Below are positions 51 to 35,416 of a stretch of 35,416 nucleotides of DNA, in pieces. A program made the position numbers and the translations under genes. Under the pieces are notes generated by a model. That model worked only from the letters and a program-made list of their open reading frames with translations, ran no database searches and was not told the origin of the DNA. Position 1 is the first letter of the stretch; each line of letters begins with the position of its first letter. The DNA is from an uncultured Lentisphaerota bacterium (GTDB lineage Bacteria > Verrucomicrobiota > Kiritimatiellia > CAIQIC01): the NCBI GenBank assembly GCA_903889245.1, contig CAISWQ010000122.1, positions 1-35,416 of the forward strand, in the 5' to 3' direction.

Positions 51-64
51 GATGTTCGATGTTC
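51..64. repeat. Heptamer duplicated at the start codon of the first gene
   Basis: GATGTTC occurs twice in tandem, giving ATGs at 52 and 59 in different frames. Its reverse complement is the unit of the tandem repeat at 6875-6909. Confidence 0.8.
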
Positions 65-2839
65 TCCCTGGTGATCACGCTGCTTGTCGGCGGGGCGCGC
101 GGCGCGGAGCCCTCGTGGCGCGAGCAGGTCGAGGCGGACTGGCTGCGGCAGGACGCGAAGCGCACCGTCCCGGCGCTGACCAAGGAATCCGACGCGGCGG
201 GTGGCGTCGATGGCGTCAAGGATGGCAAGTGGGGCTTCCACACCGAGAACGAAACGGACCCGTGGTGGCAGGTGGATCTCCAGCAACCGGTGAAGCTAGG
301 CAAGATCATCCTCTTCAACCGCTGCGACCTGGCCGCGCGCAACGCGCACATCCTCGTGCTGGTCTCCGACGACGGCAAAATTTTCCGACAGGTCTATCAA
401 CACAACGGCACGGTTTTCTACGGCTTTACCGATGGCAAGCCGCTGGGGGTGGAACTCAAAGACATCACCGCGCGCTTTGTCCGGCTGGCGTTGCACGGGC
501 AAAGTTATTTCCATCTCGACGAGGTGGAAATTTATCCGGCGGGCGACGCGCACAACGTCGCGCTCCATAAGCCGGCGACACAGAGCAGCACGAGCCAATG
601 GTCGGTCAACCATGTGTCAGCAACGCAACCCTATCCGGTCGCGCTGGTGGTCGAGCGTGGCTTGAAACTGGCGGAGAGCCAGCGGCGGCTGGGCGCGGCG
701 GTGGACAAGCCAGTCGCGGCGCTGCGCCAGGTCGCGGAGGAATTGAAAACCGCGACGACGGCGGAGGCGCGGCGCGCCTTGTATTTCCGCGCCCGTTGGA
801 CCGTGCGCGAAATGGCGCTGGCGAATCCGCTGCTGAAGTTCGATGAGCTGCTGTTCGTGAAGCGCGCGCCGGGCATTTTCCCGCACATGTCCGACCAGCA
901 TTACGGCTGGTGGTCGCGTCCCGGTGGCGGCGTCTGCGTTGTTTCTGGCTTCAAGACCGGCGTGCCGCAGGTCCGTCGTTTGACCGCCGACATGCCGGAG
1001 GGCAGCTTCACGACGCCGGAACTTTCGTTCGATGGGAAGAAAATCCTGTTCGCCTACTGCCGCTACCATCCCACCCTCGCCGACGAAAAGCGCAAGAGCG
1101 ACAAGGCCAACGTGCCGGCCGACGCGTTCTACCACGTCTTCGTGATGAACCGCGACGGCTCGGACCGCCGCCAGTTGACGCACGGCAAGTACGAGGACTT
1201 CGACGCGCGCTGGCTGCCGGATGGCGGCATCGTCTTCCTCTCGACGCGCAAGGGACTCGCGCCACAGGTGACCGCCGCCTATTCCGACTCGACGCGCACG
1301 ACCGCCGATCTGCCGGACAGCTATGTGCGCTGCGGCGGCGATGCCTATCGGCCGGTGCCGGTCTTCACGCTGCACGCGATGGATGCCGACGGCCGCAACA
1401 TCCGCCCGCTCTCTGCGTTCGAGAATTTCGAGTGGACGCCCTCGGTCGCCAGCGATGGGCGCATCCTCTATACGCGCTGGGACTACATTGACCGCTTCAA
1501 CGGCCACTTCTTCAGCCTCTGGTCGGCGAATCCCGACGGCACGAATCCGCAGCTCGTCTACGGCAACTACACCGTGCGGCCGCAGGTTAAGTTCGAGGCG
1601 CGCAGCGTGCCCGGCTCGTCGAAGCTCGTCATCACCGCCGGCGCGCATCACTCGATCACCGGTGGCGCGCTGGCGCTGCTCGACCGCAACCGCGGCACCG
1701 AGGAGGCCGCGCCGCTCACGCCGCTGACACCCGACGTGTGCTGGCCGGAAACCGGCGGCTGGCCGGAGCACTACTACGCGAACCCGTGGCCGCTCTCGGA
1801 GGAATATTTCCTGACTGCGTGGTCCGCCGCCAAGCTGCCGCCGCACTGCCGCGTGGACGACTCCGCGCGCAATCCGCCGAACGCGATGGGCCTCTACCTG
1901 CTCGACGCCTTCGGCAACCAGGAACTGCTCTACCGCGACGACGCGATCACGAGCATGTATCCGCAGCCGCTCGCGGCGCGCGCGCGACCGCCGGTTGTTG
2001 CGCCGCTCGCCAAGTGGGACGGCCCGCAGGAAGGCAGCTTCCTCGTGCAGGATGTCTATCGCGGCCTCGCCGGCGTGCCGCGCGGCACGATCAAGAGCCT
2101 GCGCCTCGTCGCGATGCCACCGAAGGTCCAGCCCAACATGAATTCGCCGAAGCTCGGCATCTCCAAGGAAGATCCCGGCAAGTACATCCTCGGCACCGTG
2201 CCGGTCGAGGCCGACGGCTCCGTGTTCGTGCGCGTGCCCTCCGGCGTGCCGCTGTTCTTCCAGGCGCTCGACGGCGCGGGCCTCGCGGTGCAGACGATGC
2301 GTTCGCTGACCTACTCGATGCCCGGCCAGACGCTCGCGTGCATCGGCTGCCACGAGGAGCGCGAGTTCGCGCCCGCCACCGGCCAGCCCGTGCTGGCCAC
2401 CCTGCGGCCGCCCTCGAAGATTACGCCCGGCCCAAGCGGCTCGTGGCCGCTGCGCTTCGATCAGCTCGTGCAGCCGGCGCTCGACCGCGGTTGCGTGCGC
2501 TGTCACCAGCCCGGCGGCGCGGCGGCCAAGCTCGACCTCACGCCGGCCAAGGCCTACGACACGCTACTCGCGTGCAGTGGCGGCAACCTCCACAAGCTCG
2601 CCTTCGAGCGCGACCGCTCCATCGCCGGCGCGTGCGTCGCCGCCAACAGCAAGCTGTGGCAGATGCTCGCCGCCGGCCATCACCACGTGAAGCTCACCGC
2701 CGATGACCGCGCGCGGTTTGCGACGTGGCTCGACACCTACGCTCACCGCCTCGGCCACTACAGCGACGAACAGGAACAAATCCTCGCCGCGCTGCGTATC
2801 CGCTGGGCTCACCTCTTGAACACGGAGATCAAACCATGA
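59..2839 (+). CDS. Secreted discoidin / beta-propeller / diheme protein, hydrazine synthase alpha-like
   Basis: 926 aa. A short hydrophobic start (MFSLVITLLVGGARGAE) reads as a Sec signal. Residues about 45-165 look like an F5/8 type C (discoidin) domain, with WWQVDL and a closing YFHLDEVEIYP. Residues about 275-720 carry WD40/TolB-like propeller blades (SFDGKKILFAYCRY, MNRDGSDRRQLTHG, LPDGGIVFLSTR). Two CxxCH haem c motifs follow at C761-H765 and C812-H816. This order matches proteins annotated as hydrazine synthase alpha-like in Planctomycetes and Verrucomicrobia; no other anammox gene is present, so hydrazine synthesis is not implied. The substrate is unknown. The start is uncertain: ATG59 and the alternative ATG52 (other frame) both sit in a duplicated heptamer (51-64), and no Shine-Dalgarno is evident. 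The stop overlaps the next start in ATGA. Confidence 0.88.
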   Translation: MFSLVITLLVGGARGAEPSWREQVEADWLRQDAKRTVPALTKESDAAGGVDGVKDGKWGFHTENETDPWWQVDLQQPVKLGKIILFNRCDLAARNAHILVLVSDDGKIFRQVYQHNGTVFYGFTDGKPLGVELKDITARFVRLALHGQSYFHLDEVEIYPAGDAHNVALHKPATQSSTSQWSVNHVSATQPYPVALVVERGLKLAESQRRLGAAVDKPVAALRQVAEELKTATTAEARRALYFRARWTVREMALANPLLKFDELLFVKRAPGIFPHMSDQHYGWWSRPGGGVCVVSGFKTGVPQVRRLTADMPEGSFTTPELSFDGKKILFAYCRYHPTLADEKRKSDKANVPADAFYHVFVMNRDGSDRRQLTHGKYEDFDARWLPDGGIVFLSTRKGLAPQVTAAYSDSTRTTADLPDSYVRCGGDAYRPVPVFTLHAMDADGRNIRPLSAFENFEWTPSVASDGRILYTRWDYIDRFNGHFFSLWSANPDGTNPQLVYGNYTVRPQVKFEARSVPGSSKLVITAGAHHSITGGALALLDRNRGTEEAAPLTPLTPDVCWPETGGWPEHYYANPWPLSEEYFLTAWSAAKLPPHCRVDDSARNPPNAMGLYLLDAFGNQELLYRDDAITSMYPQPLAARARPPVVAPLAKWDGPQEGSFLVQDVYRGLAGVPRGTIKSLRLVAMPPKVQPNMNSPKLGISKEDPGKYILGTVPVEADGSVFVRVPSGVPLFFQALDGAGLAVQTMRSLTYSMPGQTLACIGCHEEREFAPATGQPVLATLRPPSKITPGPSGSWPLRFDQLVQPALDRGCVRCHQPGGAAAKLDLTPAKAYDTLLACSGGNLHKLAFERDRSIAGACVAANSKLWQMLAAGHHHVKLTADDRARFATWLDTYAHRLGHYSDEQEQILAALRIRWAHLLNTEIKP

Positions 2840-5800
2840 TTCGCATTCCAAGGATTGGAAACCCACCACCTCATTTTCCCCAAGGCTTGGAAAAAGCAGC
2901 ACTGTCTTTTTCCAAGGCTTGGAAAACCACTCTCACCGCGCTGCTGCTCGCCGCCACCTCGCACGCCGCGGCGCCGACGCCGGAGCAAACCACGGCGCTG
3001 CGGCTGGCGATCGAAGACCTCTCGAAATCTTTTCCGGAGAAGTACACGCGCGGTGCGGAATTTTTACAGCGATTGGGCGCCGCCACCAACGAGACCGCAT
3101 TCGCCGCGCTCCAGCGCGAGGCGCTGCTCGCCAATCCGTTGCTGGATTTCGACAAGCTGCTGCTCGTCCGCCGCGGCCAAGCCCATCCCCAAGCCGCCGA
3201 CGACAAGACGAAGAAGAAGAAAAAGCCGCGCGGCCAGCTCGGTCTGCCGGCGAACTGGCAGGGCAATTCGTCGCTGCCGAAGCAGGGCTTCGATGACGAG
3301 ATCGCGGTGCTCTCGCCGGTGCGGCCGGACGGGAAATTGACGACGCTCTACGCGCCGCCGCGCGATGTCTTCGTCGGCGACCTGAACCTGAACTGGGACG
3401 GGCAGCGGCTGCTGTTCTCCTCCGTCGCCAGCAACAACACGTGGCAGGTGTTCGAGATCGGCGTGGATGGCCAGGGCCTGCGGCAGGTGACGCCGGACGA
3501 AGACAAGGACGTGGACAACTATAACGCCTGCTATCTGCCCGACGGCGCGCTGCTGTTCAGCTCGACCGCGACCTTCCTCGGCGTGCCGTGCGTGTTCGGC
3601 AGTTCCTACATCGCGAACCTCTACCGCCTCGAAACCAACGGCGCGATCCGGCAGGTGACGTTCGAGCAGGAGCACGACTGGCATCCGCATGTGCTGCCGG
3701 ACGGGCGCGTGCTCTATGCGCGCTGGGAATACACCGACGCCTCGCACTCGAACTCGCGGATGCTCTTCCACATGAATCCCGACGGCACCGACCAGCGGAT
3801 GTACCGCGGCAGCGGCTCGTGGTTCCCCGGTTCGCTTTTCTACGCGAAGGCCGTGCCCGGCCATCCCGGCCGCGTCGTCGGCATCGCCAGCGGCCACCAT
3901 GGCGTGGCGCGCCTCGGCCGGCTGATGATCTTCGAGACGCCGGAAGGCCGCGCCGATGGCAACGGCATCGAGCAGGAAATCCCCGGCCGTGGCAAGGCGG
4001 TGGACCCGATCGTGCGCGACCAGTTGATCCACGGCTACCCGCAGTTCCTCATGCCGCAGCCCCTGAACGACAAGTACTTTCTGGTGTCCTGCAAACCCGA
4101 CACCGTCGCGCCGTGGGGCATCTATCTCGTGGACGTCTTCGACAACATGACGCTGATCAAGGAACTGCCGGGCGAGGCGCTCTTCGAGCCGATTCCGCTG
4201 CGCGCCACCGAGCGGCCGCCGGTGATTCCGTCGCGCGTGGACCTGACCAAGAGCGAAGCGACCGTACACATCCACGACCTCCACGAAGGCCCCGGCCTCG
4301 CAGGTGTGCCGCGCGGGGTGGTGAAGGCGCTGCGCATCGTCGGCTATGAATTTTCGCGGCGTGGCAACGGCGGGCTCTACGGCACGATCGGCAGCGACGG
4401 CCCGTGGGACATGCGCCGCGTGCTCGGCACCGTGCCGGTGCAACCCGATGGCTCGGTGAAATTCCAGATGCCGGCGAACACACCGCTGATGTTCCAGCCG
4501 CTCGACGAAAAGGGCCAGGCGCTGCAACTGATGCGGACATGGATCACCGGCATGCCGGGCGAGACGATTTCGTGCGCGGGTTGCCACGAGGATCCGGGCG
4601 TCGCGCCGATGCGCCGCGCGAGCAAGGCCTCGCAGGCCGCGCCGGAAAAGATCAAGCCGTGGTACGGCCCGGAGCGCGGCTTCAGCTTCGTCCGCGAGGT
4701 GCAGCCCGTGCTCAACAAGTATTGCATCGGCTGTCACAACGAAAACCATGCGCTCGATTTCTCCGGCAACAAGCCGCTGATCGGCTGGTCCACGCAGATG
4801 GCAGGCAACTGGCGCTCCGGCGGCCAGTTCACGCTGGCCTACTGGCAGTTGCAGCGCTATGTCCGCCGGCCGGGTATCGAGGGCGACCGCGGCCTGTTCA
4901 CGCCGCTCGAATTCCACTTCAGCACGACGGAACTCGGTCAACTGCTGCGCAAAGGCCACCACGGCGTGCAGCTCGACGCCGAAGCCTACAGCCGCCTCGT
5001 GACGTGGGCCGACGAGAACGCGCCGTTCCACGGACGCTGGAGCGACGTACCCGGCATCAACACCAACGCGATGCTCGCGATGAACCAGCGCCTGCTGGAG
5101 TTGCGCCGCAAGTACGCGCCGATGGGCCCGCACGAGGATCCCGAAGTCATGCCGGAGGTGCCGAAGTTCGACCAGACGCCGGTCAAACCGAACGAAAACC
5201 TGAAACCTGAAACTGGAAACCTGAAACTCTCAGGCTGGCCCTTCAGCGCCGAAGAAGCCGCGCGCCTGCAAAAGCAAAGCACGCCCGGCGGTGGCGAACC
5301 GCTGCGCATGCTGCCGCTGGTCAAACCGGTGGACACGCCCCCGCCGCCGGTGAAGGCGAAGTTCGTCCGCGTCTGGGCCGGCCCGGCCAAGTGGCTCCAA
5401 ATTGCCGAGGCGGAAATTTTCTCGTCGGGCCGCAACGTCGCGCGCGGCCGGCCCGCGAAGCAGTCGAGCCTGTATGGCACCGGCTGGGAGGCCTCGAACG
5501 CCCTCGATGGCGATCCGCACGGCCGCGCCACGCACACAAAGAACGGCGAGCACGAGTGGTGGGAAGTCGAACTCGCCGATGAATGCCTCATCGACAAGCT
5601 CGTGTTCTGGCCGCGGCCCGGCGTCTGCGTGGCGCGACTGGCCGAGGCGAAGGTCGAACTCATGGATGCCAATCGCAAGGTCGTCTGGGAGTGTGTCACG
5701 CCCAAAACCATCGGCGAGAAGGTCATCCTTTCCACCGGCGTGCCGGTGAGCAATTCCGACCTCGCGGTCGCATGGATTCCCGCCGGCGAATTCCTGATGG

Positions 5801-6561
5801 GCAGCGCCGAGGGCCAGGCCGACGAACGGCCGGTCCACGCGCAGAAAATCGCCAAGGGCTTCTGGATGTCCCGCTGCGAGATCACCAACGAGCAGTTCAA
5901 ACAATTCGACCCGCAGCACAGCAGCGGCGCGGAAGACCGCCACGGCTATCAGTTCGGCATCACCGGCTATCCGCTCGACGAGCCGGACCAACCGGTCGTG
6001 CGCGTCTCGCAAGCGGAGGCGCTCGCCTACTGCCGCTGGCTCTCGCAGAAACTCGGCAAGCGCGTCACGCTCCCGACCGAGGCGCAGTGGGAGTGGGCGT
6101 GCCGCGCCGGCAGCGCGACGCCGCTGTGGTACGGCGGGCTCGACGCCGACTTTGCCAAGTGCGCCAACCTCGGCGACGCGATGCTCGCGAACTTCTCCGG
6201 CAATCCCTACCAGCAGGACTGGCGCACCGCCGCGCACAAAAACCCGAACAAGTTCGACAACTGGATCCCGCAGGATGCGCGCTGCAACGACGGCGGCTTC
6301 GTCACCGAGCCCGCCGGCAAGTACACGCCGAATCCCTGGGGCCTGTGCGACCTGCACGGCAACGCCGCCGAGTGGACGCTTTCCGCTTATCGCCCGTATC
6401 CCGAACACTCCGTGGCCGAGGGCGAGAAGGTCGTACGCGGCGGCTCGTGGGCTGACCGGCCGTTCCACGCCACCTCCAGCTTCCGCCTGCCCTATCAGCC
6501 GTGGCAGCGCGTCCACAACGTCGGCTTCCGCGTGCTCATCGAGGACGCGCCCGAAAAATGA
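2836..6561 (+). CDS. Secreted diheme propeller protein with discoidin and SUMF1-like C-terminal domains
   Basis: 1241 aa from ATG2836, which overlaps the upstream stop (ATGA) and has GGAG 8 nt before it. The first ~30 codons are three palindromic repeats read in frame (IPRIGN, FPQGLEK, FSKAWK), followed by the hydrophobic core LTALLLAATSHAAA, so the repeat supplies the n-region of the signal peptide. Propeller blades occupy about residues 150-560. CxxCH motifs are at C580-H584 and C630-H634. A discoidin-like domain lies at about 840-960 and a SUMF1/FGE-sulfatase-fold domain at about 977-1238 (WIPAGEFLMGS, LPTEAQWEWACRAG, GNAAEWTLS, VVRGGSW). The segment after RGGSW lacks the catalytic cysteine pair of true formylglycine-generating enzymes, so activity of that kind is unlikely. 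Codons for about residues 789-797 are a 7-bp tandem repeat. It is a paralogue of the upstream gene and is probably periplasmic. Substrate unknown. Confidence 0.88.
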   Translation: MIRIPRIGNPPPHFPQGLEKAALSFSKAWKTTLTALLLAATSHAAAPTPEQTTALRLAIEDLSKSFPEKYTRGAEFLQRLGAATNETAFAALQREALLANPLLDFDKLLLVRRGQAHPQAADDKTKKKKKPRGQLGLPANWQGNSSLPKQGFDDEIAVLSPVRPDGKLTTLYAPPRDVFVGDLNLNWDGQRLLFSSVASNNTWQVFEIGVDGQGLRQVTPDEDKDVDNYNACYLPDGALLFSSTATFLGVPCVFGSSYIANLYRLETNGAIRQVTFEQEHDWHPHVLPDGRVLYARWEYTDASHSNSRMLFHMNPDGTDQRMYRGSGSWFPGSLFYAKAVPGHPGRVVGIASGHHGVARLGRLMIFETPEGRADGNGIEQEIPGRGKAVDPIVRDQLIHGYPQFLMPQPLNDKYFLVSCKPDTVAPWGIYLVDVFDNMTLIKELPGEALFEPIPLRATERPPVIPSRVDLTKSEATVHIHDLHEGPGLAGVPRGVVKALRIVGYEFSRRGNGGLYGTIGSDGPWDMRRVLGTVPVQPDGSVKFQMPANTPLMFQPLDEKGQALQLMRTWITGMPGETISCAGCHEDPGVAPMRRASKASQAAPEKIKPWYGPERGFSFVREVQPVLNKYCIGCHNENHALDFSGNKPLIGWSTQMAGNWRSGGQFTLAYWQLQRYVRRPGIEGDRGLFTPLEFHFSTTELGQLLRKGHHGVQLDAEAYSRLVTWADENAPFHGRWSDVPGINTNAMLAMNQRLLELRRKYAPMGPHEDPEVMPEVPKFDQTPVKPNENLKPETGNLKLSGWPFSAEEAARLQKQSTPGGGEPLRMLPLVKPVDTPPPPVKAKFVRVWAGPAKWLQIAEAEIFSSGRNVARGRPAKQSSLYGTGWEASNALDGDPHGRATHTKNGEHEWWEVELADECLIDKLVFWPRPGVCVARLAEAKVELMDANRKVVWECVTPKTIGEKVILSTGVPVSNSDLAVAWIPAGEFLMGSAEGQADERPVHAQKIAKGFWMSRCEITNEQFKQFDPQHSSGAEDRHGYQFGITGYPLDEPDQPVVRVSQAEALAYCRWLSQKLGKRVTLPTEAQWEWACRAGSATPLWYGGLDADFAKCANLGDAMLANFSGNPYQQDWRTAAHKNPNKFDNWIPQDARCNDGGFVTEPAGKYTPNPWGLCDLHGNAAEWTLSAYRPYPEHSVAEGEKVVRGGSWADRPFHATSSFRLPYQPWQRVHNVGFRVLIEDAPEK
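2846..2926. repeat. Palindromic array 1 (3 units), translated
   Basis: Palindromes centred at 2853, 2885 and 2917 (spacings 32, 32). The second has one arm mismatch. All lie inside the leader of the 2836-6561 gene. Confidence 0.95.
5199..5226 (+). repeat. 7-bp tandem repeat inside a coding region
   Basis: Four units of CCTGAAA (third unit CTGGAAA), encoding part of the linker between the cytochrome and discoidin domains. Confidence 0.88.
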
Positions 6562-6703: not shown

Positions 6704-6846
6704 TTCCAAGCCCTGGAAAATTTTCCGTGAGATTTTCCAAGCCTTGGAAAATTCCGCGCGGAAATTTCCAAGCCTTGGAAAACTTGGCGGTGAAATTTTC
6801 CAATGCCTGGAAAAAGCGCCAGCTCCACTATCCAAAGCTTGGAAAA
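6704..6846. repeat. Palindromic array 2 (5 units)
   Basis: Centres at 6711, 6742, 6773, 6805 and 6837 (spacings 31, 31, 32, 32). The spacers between units are unrelated in sequence. It is the longest array in the window. Confidence 0.96.
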
Positions 6847-10903: not shown

Positions 10904-11089
10904 TTTTCCAAGGCTTGATGGCACCGCCAAAAGTCACAGCAGACGCCGCGTGAGGTCACGCGGCCTACAAAACCACAAAAAAGACCGCTGTTTCAAATGT
11001 TGGCCGGGTCTCCGACCCGGCGAATCAGACTTTTGTCGGCGCCATCCAAGGCTTGGAAATTTTGCTCTCTCTTTTTCCAAACCTTGGAA
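10904..11089. repeat. Palindromic array 3 (2 units plus a solitary degenerate unit)
   Basis: Centres at 11051 and 11082 (spacing 31), and a half-decayed unit centred at 10913 just upstream of the pectate-lyase-fold gene. A bipartite hairpin lies between them. Confidence 0.88.
10941..11023. repeat. Bipartite hairpin element, copy 1
   Basis: Hairpin GCCGCGTGAGGTCACGCGGC (10945-10964) and hairpin GCCGGGTC-TCC-GACCCGGC (11003-11021), joined by about 38 nt. Confidence 0.9.
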
Positions 11090-11716: not shown

Positions 11717-14517
11717 CGGCACGGCAGCTTGTCCTTCTTCACCAGCTCGCGCGGGAGCAACAGCGCGTCGGGCGCGGCAGCGAGTACGTTGGGCGCGTTG
11801 AAAAACCAGAGCTGGCTGTGCGCGCGCGGCGAGAAGCCCCATACCTGCCCATCGGCGCCGGCAGGCACGCCGATGCTCACGACCTCGTCGTCCTGCGTCA
11901 CCTTGGCGATGACCTTGCCATCCGGGCCGAGCACGCTGTGCGGCCCGCCGTTCCAGAAATACTGCAACTCGCGTGTGCCCTTCGGCACATAAAAAAACAT
12001 CGCCTGCATCTGGCCCAGCGAGATGACCCGGCCGCCGCGTTTGTTCAGCAGCGTCGCGGCGCGGCCCGGCTCGACCTTGAACCGCCAGCCCGCGCCAGAA
12101 TCGTTGCCCTCGAAGAAATAGGTGCCGGCGCGCGGCACCGGCATGACCAGTTTGTGCGCCGCGCCATCCTGCGGCAGCGTGCCCGAAGCCACCACGTTGC
12201 TGCCGCCATCGCGCAGCCACCAGCGCGCCGCCGCGCGGTCGCGATACCACGCGATGACACCCGTGGTGAACTCTGCCTCAAGGGCCTCGCCGGCGCGGCT
12301 GTGCAGCGCGTAGGTCATCGCCCGCTGATAGGACTGGAGGCTCACGACGGGCTTCTGGTTGGTGAACGCGACCGGCACGAGGTCGCTGGAAAAATTCTGT
12401 TCCACTGCCGGCGTCGGCTGGAAGTATTCCAAGCCCTCACGGAACCATTGCGCCGTTTCCTCGCGCGTCACCGGCGTCTCGACCTGCCACGGCTTGGGCG
12501 TCTTGTCGTTGCGCAGCCAGTCGGGCTCGTCGAATTTCTTGGCGGCATCGCCGGCGAGCGAAGAACGCATCGCGGCCCAGTGGTTCATGTATTCATAGCG
12601 TGTGCGGTAGGCCAGCGTGAGAATGTCCACCGTAAGCTGCTTCTGCCGCGCCTTGTCCTTCTCGTGATCAAGCAGCCAGCGCAGGTGGACGTAGCGCAGG
12701 TAATGCTTGAGCTGGTCGAGCCGCGCGAGCACGTCGGGCCGGGCTTGCGCCAACCGCGTCGCCTCCCCGATGTCGCGCAATGCTTCGCCAATGAAACCGC
12801 GGCTGACCAGTGGCGCGCCATCCGGCGCGACGCGCTCGTAGTAGCGTCGCACTGCGGGCGCGGCGGGACCGAAGGCCTTGTCATAGAAATCCGCGAGCAG
12901 CGCCGGCACGTCCGCCGCCGGGTTCCAGAGCAGCTTGTTCGCGATGTAGTAGCCGCGCCCGTGGACGCCCCAGTTGTTGCCGCTCTCGGCGTCGAAACTG
13001 GTCGCGCCCGCCTTGAGGTAGCGGTCGAGCATCAGCTTCGTCCGCGTGAGGTTCGCGCCGTTGCCGCCGGGCAGCCGGTCGAAGTCCCAGAGCCAGACCG
13101 AGAAATATTCGTAGAAGCCCAGCCGCGCACAGGCCTTGGGCCACAGCTCCAGCAACTCGTCGTGCGTGTAACGTCCGCGGATGAAGCCCGCCGTGAGCTG
13201 CACGTAGACGTTCGGCTCCAGCTTGAACGACGGCGGCTCGCTGTGCTGGTTATAGGCGAGGCAGCCGACCATCTTGCCCGGATGTTGCTCCGCGACCGCC
13301 CGCGCCACGCTGTTGACCAGCGAGAAGACGCGGTCCGACACGCTGCCGAGCTTCGCGCAGTCTGCGCACTCGCACTGGCCGTCGCCATCGGAGCATTCCA
13401 TCGAGACCATTTCGCGGTCGGGATACTTCTCGAAGAAGCGCAACGCCCACCCGGCGGCCAGCCGCCGCACGTCTGGATTGCTCACGCACAACTGCTCGCC
13501 TCCGCGCTGGCCCTTCACCAGCGCCAGATATTCAGGATGCGCGGCGAACGCCGTCTTGTTGTCCGCGATGATCGCCTGCCACGCGTGCCCGGCATAGACG
13601 CGAAACGAACTTGCCATCAGGTTGTGCCGCGCCCACGCCTCATAGTCCTGCTGCGCGCTCCCGCCGCGCGGGTGGCCCTTGTCATGAAAAGCGCCGTAGC
13701 CATACCAGATCCGCCGCGCGAGGATGCGCGGCCGCTCGGCGACGTCGAGCGACACGCGCAAATTTTTCTCCGCCGGGATCACGGTCCATTCCGGCGCCGG
13801 GAAAAACCAGCGGCAGCCCAGTTCCTCCAGCAGCCGGAACGCCGCGTGTGAAGCACCCAGGTCCGTCGCCCCGATCAACCGCAAACGCTGCCGCTCGCTG
13901 CGGATGATGAACGCCTCGCGGCCATCAAAGGTGTTGCGGATTTCCAGTGCCTTGGCCAGCGCCGGGTCGGGGAACTCCGCCAGCGAACCGAGCACGATCC
14001 CGCACGAGCCATCGCCGGGCTGCACCGTGAACTGCGCGCCGCTGATGCGGCCGAGATAATCCGCCAATTCCGCCGCCACCACCTGCGTTGCGGCGGAGGC
14101 GTTCGTCGCGATGATGACCGGCTGCAGCGCCGCGCCCTCGCTGGCGAGCCGCGTCGTCGCCGCCCAGCTCGAATGCAAAATGAGGCCGTAGCCAACCAGC
14201 CTTTTCCAGGACCGCGGAGAACGGCCGTTGCCCTTGATCGGAATCCGGGGAGCGCACGCGCCCTCGGACAGGAGAGAAATCCAAGGCTTGGAAAATTTCG
14301 GGACGATTTTTCCAAGCCTTGGAAAAAACACGGCTGACTTTTTCCAACCCTTGGAAAAATCGGCCCTGTGACTTTCCAATCCTTGGAAAGGATAAACGTC
14401 AATCCCGCCGGGTCGGAGACCCGGCCTACAGATAATTCCAACGGATTCTATGCGGCTGGCTGTAGGCCGCGTGACCGCACGCGGCGTCTTCCAACTTGTG
14501 AAAAATAGCTGGCTCAT
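11713..14517 (-). CDS. DUF4838-domain protein, putative secreted glycoside hydrolase
   Basis: 934 aa if ATG14517 is used; this ATG overlaps the previous stop (ATGA) but lacks a clear Shine-Dalgarno. The first ~100 codons are then a bipartite hairpin plus four palindromic repeats read without a stop. A shorter protein starting at a non-ATG codon near 14200 is possible: WKRLVGYGLILHSSWAATT would be a compact signal peptide. An N-terminal alpha-glucuronidase/GH20-like accessory fold follows (IATNASAATQVVAAELADYL; GSCGIVLGS). The DUF4838 body includes ECSDGDGQCECADC, AYNQHSEPPS and FYEYFSVWLWDFDRLPGG. DUF4838 proteins accompany polysaccharide-degradation genes, but the reaction is unknown. A C-terminal beta-sandwich is likely. 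The gene is certain; the start is not. Confidence 0.86.
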   Translation of the reverse strand: MSQLFFTSWKTPRAVTRPTASRIESVGIICRPGLRPGGIDVYPFQGLESHRADFSKGWKKSAVFFPRLGKIVPKFSKPWISLLSEGACAPRIPIKGNGRSPRSWKRLVGYGLILHSSWAATTRLASEGAALQPVIIATNASAATQVVAAELADYLGRISGAQFTVQPGDGSCGIVLGSLAEFPDPALAKALEIRNTFDGREAFIIRSERQRLRLIGATDLGASHAAFRLLEELGCRWFFPAPEWTVIPAEKNLRVSLDVAERPRILARRIWYGYGAFHDKGHPRGGSAQQDYEAWARHNLMASSFRVYAGHAWQAIIADNKTAFAAHPEYLALVKGQRGGEQLCVSNPDVRRLAAGWALRFFEKYPDREMVSMECSDGDGQCECADCAKLGSVSDRVFSLVNSVARAVAEQHPGKMVGCLAYNQHSEPPSFKLEPNVYVQLTAGFIRGRYTHDELLELWPKACARLGFYEYFSVWLWDFDRLPGGNGANLTRTKLMLDRYLKAGATSFDAESGNNWGVHGRGYYIANKLLWNPAADVPALLADFYDKAFGPAAPAVRRYYERVAPDGAPLVSRGFIGEALRDIGEATRLAQARPDVLARLDQLKHYLRYVHLRWLLDHEKDKARQKQLTVDILTLAYRTRYEYMNHWAAMRSSLAGDAAKKFDEPDWLRNDKTPKPWQVETPVTREETAQWFREGLEYFQPTPAVEQNFSSDLVPVAFTNQKPVVSLQSYQRAMTYALHSRAGEALEAEFTTGVIAWYRDRAAARWWLRDGGSNVVASGTLPQDGAAHKLVMPVPRAGTYFFEGNDSGAGWRFKVEPGRAATLLNKRGGRVISLGQMQAMFFYVPKGTRELQYFWNGGPHSVLGPDGKVIAKVTQDDEVVSIGVPAGADGQVWGFSPRAHSQLWFFNAPNVLAAAPDALLLPRELVKKDKLPCR
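14279..14389. repeat. Palindromic array 4 (4 units)
   Basis: Centres at 14286, 14317, 14349 and 14381 (spacings 31, 32, 32). It lies in the open leader of the DUF4838 gene. Confidence 0.95.
14407..14487. repeat. Bipartite hairpin element, copy 2 (inverted)
   Basis: GCCGGGTC-GGA-GACCCGGC (14407-14425) and GCCGCGTG-ACCG-CACGCGGC (14466-14485), in the opposite orientation to copies 1 and 3. It lies at the 5' end of the DUF4838 frame. Confidence 0.9.
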
Positions 14518-18416: not shown

Positions 18417-18497
18417 TTTTCCAAGGCTCGGAAAATTTTCCGCGAAAGTTTCCAATCCTTGGAAAAAACCACCCCGTGGTTTTCCAAGGATTGGAAA
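18417..18497. repeat. Palindromic array 5 (3 units)
   Basis: Centres at 18426, 18457 and 18489 (spacings 31, 32). The first unit has one mismatch. Confidence 0.95.
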
Positions 18498-26830: not shown

Positions 26831-26911
26831 TTTTCCAAACATTGGAAAAGAACACAGCCAAAGTTCCAAGGATTGGAAACAGTCGCGCTGATTTTTTCCA
26901 AGGCTTGGAAA
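26831..26911. repeat. Palindromic array 6 (3 units)
   Basis: Centres at 26840, 26871 and 26903 (spacings 31, 32). It begins right where the IS91-like remnant ends. Confidence 0.95.
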
Positions 26912-34340: not shown

Positions 34341-34417
34341 TTCCAAGGATTGGAAAGCCCGAAGCCTGTTTTTTCCAAGGCTTGGAAAATTTCGCGCCCG
34401 TTTTTCCAAGCCTTGGA
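34341..34417. repeat. Palindromic array 7 (3 units)
   Basis: Centres at 34348, 34380 and 34411 (spacings 32, 31). It lies between the divergent GH127 operon and DUF6498 gene. Confidence 0.95.
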
Positions 34418-34443
34418 CACCCACGCCACAACCCCACTGCGCG

Positions 34444-35113: not shown

Positions 35114-35416
35114 ACAAAAGCGAACGAAGCAACGAAGAAGAAGGTCACCCACTCTCTCATCGCTATCGGTATCGGCTCGCAATCGCTAGCGCTCTTCGCG
35201 TCACGCCGAGGCCCATCCCGAAGGCGTGCCTGATCTGTCACTGTTCCAAGGCTTGGGAAAATCGGCACAAATTTCCCCAAGGGTTGGAAAACCTGCCGGG
35301 ACCTGTTTCCAATCCCCCTCTGTGCCTATGAAAGTGAGACACTTTGTTGACAGGAATATAGAGGGCGGGAAAAGGCTAGCGGATGCAGACGGAAACAGGA
35401 ATGACAGAGGCGGCAG
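35114..35416. other. Terminal non-coding stretch
   Basis: No gene is supported. It contains a purine-rich segment like 18257-18290, palindromic array 8, a different palindrome at 35331-35345 and a TTGACA at 35347-35352. An ATG at 35328 opens a frame that runs off the window edge, but nothing supports it as a gene. Confidence 0.7.
35244..35320. repeat. Palindromic array 8 (3 units, decayed)
   Basis: Centres at 35251, 35282 and about 35314 (spacings 31, 32). The last keeps only its left arm, yet sits at the expected distance. Confidence 0.85.

Follow-up and report, generated by a model that had tools for sequence, protein, structure and literature searches.

Several families of short repeated DNA resemble the palindromic arrays described here in some respects. 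Rickettsia palindromic elements (RPEs; Ogata et al. 2000, 2002, as cited in PMC10969869) are mobile insertions of ~150 bp that encode a conserved peptide. They share with the present arrays palindromic DNA that lies in frame within unrelated protein-coding genes and also between genes; here, by contrast, the palindromes are short, have a fixed three-turn pitch and unrelated spacers, are evenly distributed, and appear to have been gained largely by substitution in the tested genes. HIP1 of cyanobacteria, the highly iterated 8-bp GCGATCGC tied to methyltransferases (PMC4390886), is likewise a very frequent, genome-wide palindrome, whereas the element here is 15–19 bp, of odd length and set in phased arrays. 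REP/BIME elements are clustered, high-copy extragenic palindromes (PMC3733652); unlike those associated with RAYT, the present arrays are tagless, show no RAYT association, are phased at 31–32 bp and are conserved within genes. The mitochondria of Nematomorpha also embed inverted repeats in protein-coding genes (PMC6649704); these are perfect and reach 284 bp, and their architecture and the organism are unrelated to ours. Uptake sequences (USS/DUS) have a high copy number, a non-coding preference and an accumulation by point change in tolerant coding regions in common with the arrays, but are non-palindromic and not evenly spaced (PMC1939737).

The closest architectural parallel is found in the Lrp/AsnC (FFRP) family. 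The sites of Ss-LrpB are semi-palindromes in regular one-face clusters, two or three turns apart centre-to-centre, on which the DNA is wrapped (PMC2995911). Lrp/AsnC clusters, with palindromes of ~13–15 bp and two- or three-turn phasing, thus resemble the 15-bp core and 31–32 bp pitch seen both in the genus studied here and class-wide, although the Lrp sites described so far are degenerate and much less numerous and the Lrp/AsnC domain (PF01037) also occurs in array-free genomes. A search of PubMed Central open-access text with the motif gave three matches, each in an unrelated paper, and no description of these arrays was found among Verrucomicrobia/Kiritimatiellae repeats in the open-access literature, which is weak evidence.

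A three-copy array at a gene junction

The window, the whole stretch of 35,416 nucleotides analysed, is contig C122 of the 5.26-Mb genome, in 125 contigs, of a lake bacterium (G000). Among its named relatives, lake MAGs labelled uncultured Lentisphaerae stand nearest, and Kiritimatiellae are more distant. Nearly all of the sequence compared came from metagenome assemblies. At positions 59–6561, two neighbouring genes encode large exported proteins whose middle domain is hydrazine-synthase-alpha-like (Table 1); paralogues of this family are numerous both in this genome and in relatives. The Pfam domains of gene 2 comprise an HZS_alpha middle domain, F5/8 type C and FGE-sulfatase/SUMF1.

The TGA of gene 1 (2837–2839) overlaps ATG2836, from which an open frame runs through the array and TTLTALLLAATSHA to 6561. 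The array consists of three near-copies of TTTTCCAAGGCTTGGAAAA, starting at 2846, 2878 and 2910 in steps of 32 bp. The palindrome contains no stop codon in any frame (the frames give FSKAWK, FPRLGK and FQGLE), and because 32 is not divisible by three, each copy is read in another frame. Residues 1–30 as read from ATG2836 include AALSFSK and IGNPPPHFPQGLEK. The sequence and its translation bear out the original prediction that ATG2836 overlaps the upstream stop with a GGAG 8 nt before it, that three palindromes lie in frame between this ATG and the hydrophobic core, and that the array would supply n-region residues, copy 3 reading as (F)SKAWK directly 5' of TTLTALLLAATSHA.

The gene 2 orthologues in two congeners, G002 and G003, are 83–85% identical to it, with the alignment starting only at residue 31–32. 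Their leaders, MKFIRSLSAALLLTATAHA and MKCILPLFAALLLAATAHA, are short, begin at another ATG and carry no array; the orthologues read MKFIRSLSAALLL and MKCILPLFAALLL there. The C-terminus of gene 1 is 78–79% identical to a G002/G003 gene that precedes a paralogue there: in both congeners a gene 2 paralogue stands between the orthologues of genes 1 and 2. The window lacks this paralogue, and genes 1 and 2 abut. No array was found at the orthologous junction of G002/G003. The G002 junction reads GCAGCACCCGCACCATGATG, and its gene 1 likewise ends in CCATGATG, but GGAG is absent.

On the basis of the synteny and of the G002 gene 1 end, ATG2836 derives from the 3' end of gene 1 and not from the ancestral start of gene 2. 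We infer that the paralogue was lost in the window rather than gained in the relatives; with it missing, the native start of gene 2 was probably lost as well and the ATG at the gene 1 stop, which presumably now serves gene 2, was recruited. The simplest history would thus comprise loss of the spacer and of the native start (MKFI/MKCI), an array at the junction, and the ATG overlapping the gene 1 stop as the new start, so that the array between this ATG and the signal-peptide core would be translated as ~26 extra n-region codons. Compared with the orthologues, the leader here is longer and the array has been added as a segment, not formed by in-place substitution; the synteny points to a rearrangement over a clean insertion. 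The array-free congener leaders and the differing synteny support, for this locus, the proposal that an intergenic repeat has turned coding. That proposal had named a repeat-free orthologous leader from the same ATG as counter-evidence; the orthologues initiate at a different ATG, so no such leader was found.

Table 1 Features of the window, with array matches outside the junction given in order of position.
Feature	Position	Strand	Remarks
Gene 1	59..2839	+	926 aa; HZS_alpha middle domain and F5/8 type C domain (ORF, Pfam)
GGAG, candidate Shine-Dalgarno	2824..2827	+	8 nt 5' of ATG2836; absent at homologous G002 junction
Gene 2	2836..6561	+	1241 aa from ATG2836; predicted exported multidomain protein (ORF, Pfam)
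Palindrome copy 1 TTCCAAGGATTGGAA	2846..2860		Translated (I)PRIG(N); 1 mismatch to TTCCAAGNCTTGGAA
Palindrome copy 2 CCCCAAGGCTTGGAA	2878..2892		Translated PQGLE; 2 mismatches to TTCCAAGNCTTGGAA
Predicted RNA hairpin, copies 2 and 3	2880..2922	+	Fold of 2840-2930: -29.3 kcal/mol, z -4.27
TTG, alternative in-frame start	2887..2889	+	Inside copy 2; no usable Shine-Dalgarno seen; pick of codon-score gene finder
Palindrome copy 3 TTCCAAGGCTTGGAA	2910..2924		Translated (F)SKAWK; 0 mismatches to TTCCAAGNCTTGGAA
Signal-peptide core and likely cleavage region TTLTALLLAATSHA	2926..2967	+	Residues 31-44; common to orthologues
Array, five copies, intergenic	6704..6844		3' of gene 2; spacing 31-32 bp
Array, two copies	11044..11089		Palindrome matches
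Array, four copies	14279..14388		Palindrome matches
Array, three copies	18419..18496		Palindrome matches
Array, three copies	26833..26910		Palindrome matches
Array, three copies	34341..34418		Palindrome matches
Array, two copies, second weak	35244..35289		Palindrome matches

Layout of the arrays along the chromosome and across the class

Exact matches to TTCCAAGGMTTGGAA number 510 forward and 549 reverse genome-wide (~1,060), and the reversed control pattern gives 0. Within the 35-kb window there are 45 strand-matches at ≤2 mismatches, against 0.05 expected in shuffles. The further genome statistics rest on 1.24 Mb, about a quarter of G000, with a GC content of 65%. This part holds 609 sites at ≤2 mismatches, and neighbouring sites lie 31 bp (n = 196) or 32 bp (n = 123) apart with almost no other value. 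They form ~258 arrays, mostly of 2–4 copies; for the whole chromosome we estimate a thousand-odd. The spacers differ between arrays and share only A/T beside the palindromes and G/C at mid-spacer.

Sites are far denser between genes (1.64/kb) than within them (0.058/kb). Nevertheless, 65 of the 258 arrays were called wholly inside genes, with open frames, a fraction that is approximate because the gene calls come from a simple codon-score finder. Successive arrays in the 1.24 Mb are over-dispersed, with a mean distance of 5.1 kb and a CV of 0.64; two null models that honour the intergenic preference gave 1.12 ± 0.07 and 0.91 ± 0.06 (lowest of 300: 0.77), these even-spacing tests depending on the same crude gene calls. 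The median distance to the next array was 2.6 kb for in-gene arrays against 1.5 kb for random genic positions, as if in-gene arrays were gap-fillers in the layout. As an independent replicate, the congener G001 has 32-bp spacing, a CV of 0.64 against 0.90 ± 0.07, and 44 of its 138 arrays inside genes. The array at the junction belongs to a quasi-regular, helically phased series that spans the chromosome and has many members within genes, which goes beyond the original prediction.

Pairs of TCCAA-N3-TTGGA at 30–32 bp were found in 44 of 96 relatives, with 0 for the reversed control. Across 15 genomes outside the genus, 788 pairs are spaced anywhere between 16 and 46 bp, and 748 of them fall at 30–32 bp. 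The outer half-sites and the pitch are constant across lineages, whereas the central bases vary (TGA/TCA in G007, GGT in G064). Family f19 (G075; contigs C56, C58, C66 and C83) has additional spacings that approximate whole helical turns (22, 42, 52 and 63 bp), though in small numbers. In family f18 (G054, G064) the spacers are alike, unlike those of the window's genus, and the arrays resemble homogenised 31-bp tandem repeats. The sister genus (G004, G005) has almost no paired arrays though several neighbours have them, and one orthologous-looking array is left in each genome (C131:3171 and C392:9390). Since a close genus (g2) has almost no arrays, they are not essential to the family. A search for another palindrome of the same pitch, in 80 kb each of five supposedly array-free genomes, saw none; this is a weak test, as two of the genomes (G006 and G031) hold 36 and 45 paired sites under a looser motif.

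Arrays inside genes

Among multi-copy in-gene arrays, 21 of 47 lie in the first 50 codons, where 6.9 are expected (start calls being uncertain). Several of these N-terminal arrays form the n- or h-region of a signal peptide, so the junction is one case of a recurring outcome. At G000:C38:138652, five palindromes before LLPLALLAAGLAVAA make up the n-region of a predicted signal peptide, MMNQQPFQTLE...FSKPWKLLPLALLAAGLAVAA, and G002 retains part of it. At three other G000 loci (C33:8323, C65:38976 and C65:43912) the array translation is itself the hydrophobic stretch (FPIIGTLAVLFFQGLE and similar). In three sulfatase-like genes of the same genome (C65:60653, C38:87860 and C38:120564) a two-copy array immediately follows a Tat-like leader (RRDFL...).

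Orthologue tests of in-gene arrays covered five genes whose flanks were usable. The AroB, CinA, HemW, phosphodiesterase-like and glycoside-hydrolase-like genes have deep in-gene arrays at the same sites in congeners; in the sister genus the arrays are absent from the same five genes, with little or no length change, and outgroups lack them without a matching 16-codon deletion. Orthologues in more distant genomes are also array-free: CinA agrees in length to within one residue, for AroB the difference is ~7 residues in most, and HemW has a variable loop there. The simplest reading is that these arrays were gained in the window's genus by substitution.

Synonymous codon usage shows that the DNA itself is conserved. 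Congeners use the same synonymous codon as G000 at 122 of 136 positions (90%) in the palindromes and at 833 of 1270 (66%) outside them (p = 9e-10, from cells that are not independent and codon counts that pool related genomes and take in a few codons of one further N-terminal array). The corresponding counts for the sister genus are 13/34 in the palindromes and 289/507 outside. Arrays that evolved inside ordinary genes suggest candidate protein-binding sites that the genes accommodate.

Origin of the arrays and a candidate binding protein

We consider it probable that the chromosome-wide 7+1+7 palindrome arrays are sites for a dimeric protein with an organising or global regulatory role, selected at the DNA level, and that the junction array came to be translated after replacement of a start codon. 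This draws on the array statistics, the DNA-level conservation in genes, the in-place origin in the tested genes, the array-free orthologous leaders and the difference in synteny; protein binding and an architectural role would follow from these sequence patterns. The 15-bp palindromes, paired or multiple, three helical turns (31–32 bp) apart and recurring roughly every 3–5 kb, would allow cooperative docking of a dimeric protein on a single DNA face, and an odd-length palindrome every three turns fits such binding. The bound protein may help to organise the chromosome or act as a global regulator. For chromosome-organising sites of the parS/matS kind, to which an architectural protein would bind specifically, the over-dispersion and the DNA-level conservation are indirect support. 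Selection would act on the sites as DNA, mainly between genes; where arrays fall in genes, the protein sequence would adapt, which it can do because the palindrome is stop-free in every frame. Translation of an array is then best read as collateral of a DNA site.

Two alternatives concern the junction itself. Translation could begin at TTG2887, the only other in-frame ATG/GTG/TTG start 5' of the hydrophobic core, or further downstream, leaving most of the array as 5' leader. The codon-score gene finder prefers TTG2887, yet this codon lies in copy 2 without a usable Shine-Dalgarno, whereas ATG2836 is preceded at 8 nt by the GGAG that the homologous G002 junction lacks, and copy 3 would be translated even then; we regard such a start as unlikely. 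The array had also been proposed to control translation of the second gene; an mRNA hairpin just past the start codon could do so by tuning the expression of gene 2 or its coupling. Copies 2 and 3 do give a stable predicted hairpin (2880–2922, z -4.3), but the fold leaves GGAG and ATG2836 largely unpaired and therefore lends no support to this role. Any two palindrome copies pair likewise, and the hairpin simply follows from having two copies with inverted symmetry. Moreover, such an array occurs at hundreds of unrelated places, between convergent genes and deep within genes. Local translational control is accordingly very unlikely.

The remaining alternatives concern the series as a whole, and none accounts for as much of the evidence as the DNA-site reading. 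A selfish RPE-type palindrome, inserted in frame and tolerated, would agree with in-frame palindromes in many genes that are open in all frames (the 65 of 258 arrays in genes are translated in host proteins), with the N-terminal enrichment of 21/47 over 6.9 and with the junction segment, which is an addition relative to the orthologues. The five tested genes show no matching insertion, however: congeners share the sites, outgroups align with small length differences, and an empty site of element length was seen in none of AroB, CinA, HemW, the PDE-like and the GH-like gene. Spacers that vary while the spacing is fixed, over-dispersion and synonymous conservation would also be unexpected for inert insertions, which leaves this origin distinctly improbable. 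A DNA uptake or self-recognition sequence built up by molecular drive through natural transformation has slim prospects: such sequences are known to reach high copy numbers, to favour intergenic DNA, to occur in tolerant coding regions and to arise by point substitution, but they are non-palindromic and reported not to be evenly spaced (PMC1939737). Nor are they typically paired and helically phased. Mobilisation by a RAYT/Y1 transposase, as for REP-like extragenic palindromes, would explain high-copy intergenic palindromes, and most of these genomes have Y1_Tnp genes. Yet the array-richest genome, that of the window, has two weak Y1_Tnp matches and array-free genomes have many, no head tag is conserved and the architecture is fixed at 31–32 bp, so that we give this origin hardly any credence. 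Across genomes, RAYT/Y1 transposases did not correlate with array numbers. RPE-type insertion, REP/RAYT mobility and a hairpin switch thus fit worse than DNA sites for a dimeric protein, and transposase mobility, an uptake sequence and an RNA switch explain less.

For the protein that would bind these sites, the Lrp family is the best architectural model, because its members bind semi-palindromes at two- or three-turn spacing and wrap DNA. PF01037 is present in 88 of 96 genomes, array-free ones included. All 8 Lrp-less genomes lack arrays (p ~0.03, from only two families), but so do many Lrp-bearing genomes. The Lrp/AsnC gene of G000 (C71) has no array in its vicinity. Neither presence nor proximity to the gene nor the HTH sequence discriminated in favour of Lrp/AsnC as the binder.

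More tentatively, and with somewhat less than even confidence, we propose that the arrays belong to a previously undescribed chromosome-architecture system of Kiritimatiellae, in which hundreds to >1,000 cooperative, three-turn-phased arrays, a few kilobases apart and under strong selection, may have reshaped core enzymes such as AroB and HemW and occasionally been captured as signal-peptide n-regions. If true, this would be a clear natural case of a DNA-level signal dictating amino-acid sequence across many unrelated proteins, would offer a concrete route from non-coding repeat DNA to a signal-peptide n-region, and, in a class of which most members are uncultured, would give a lead to a candidate global DNA-binding protein.
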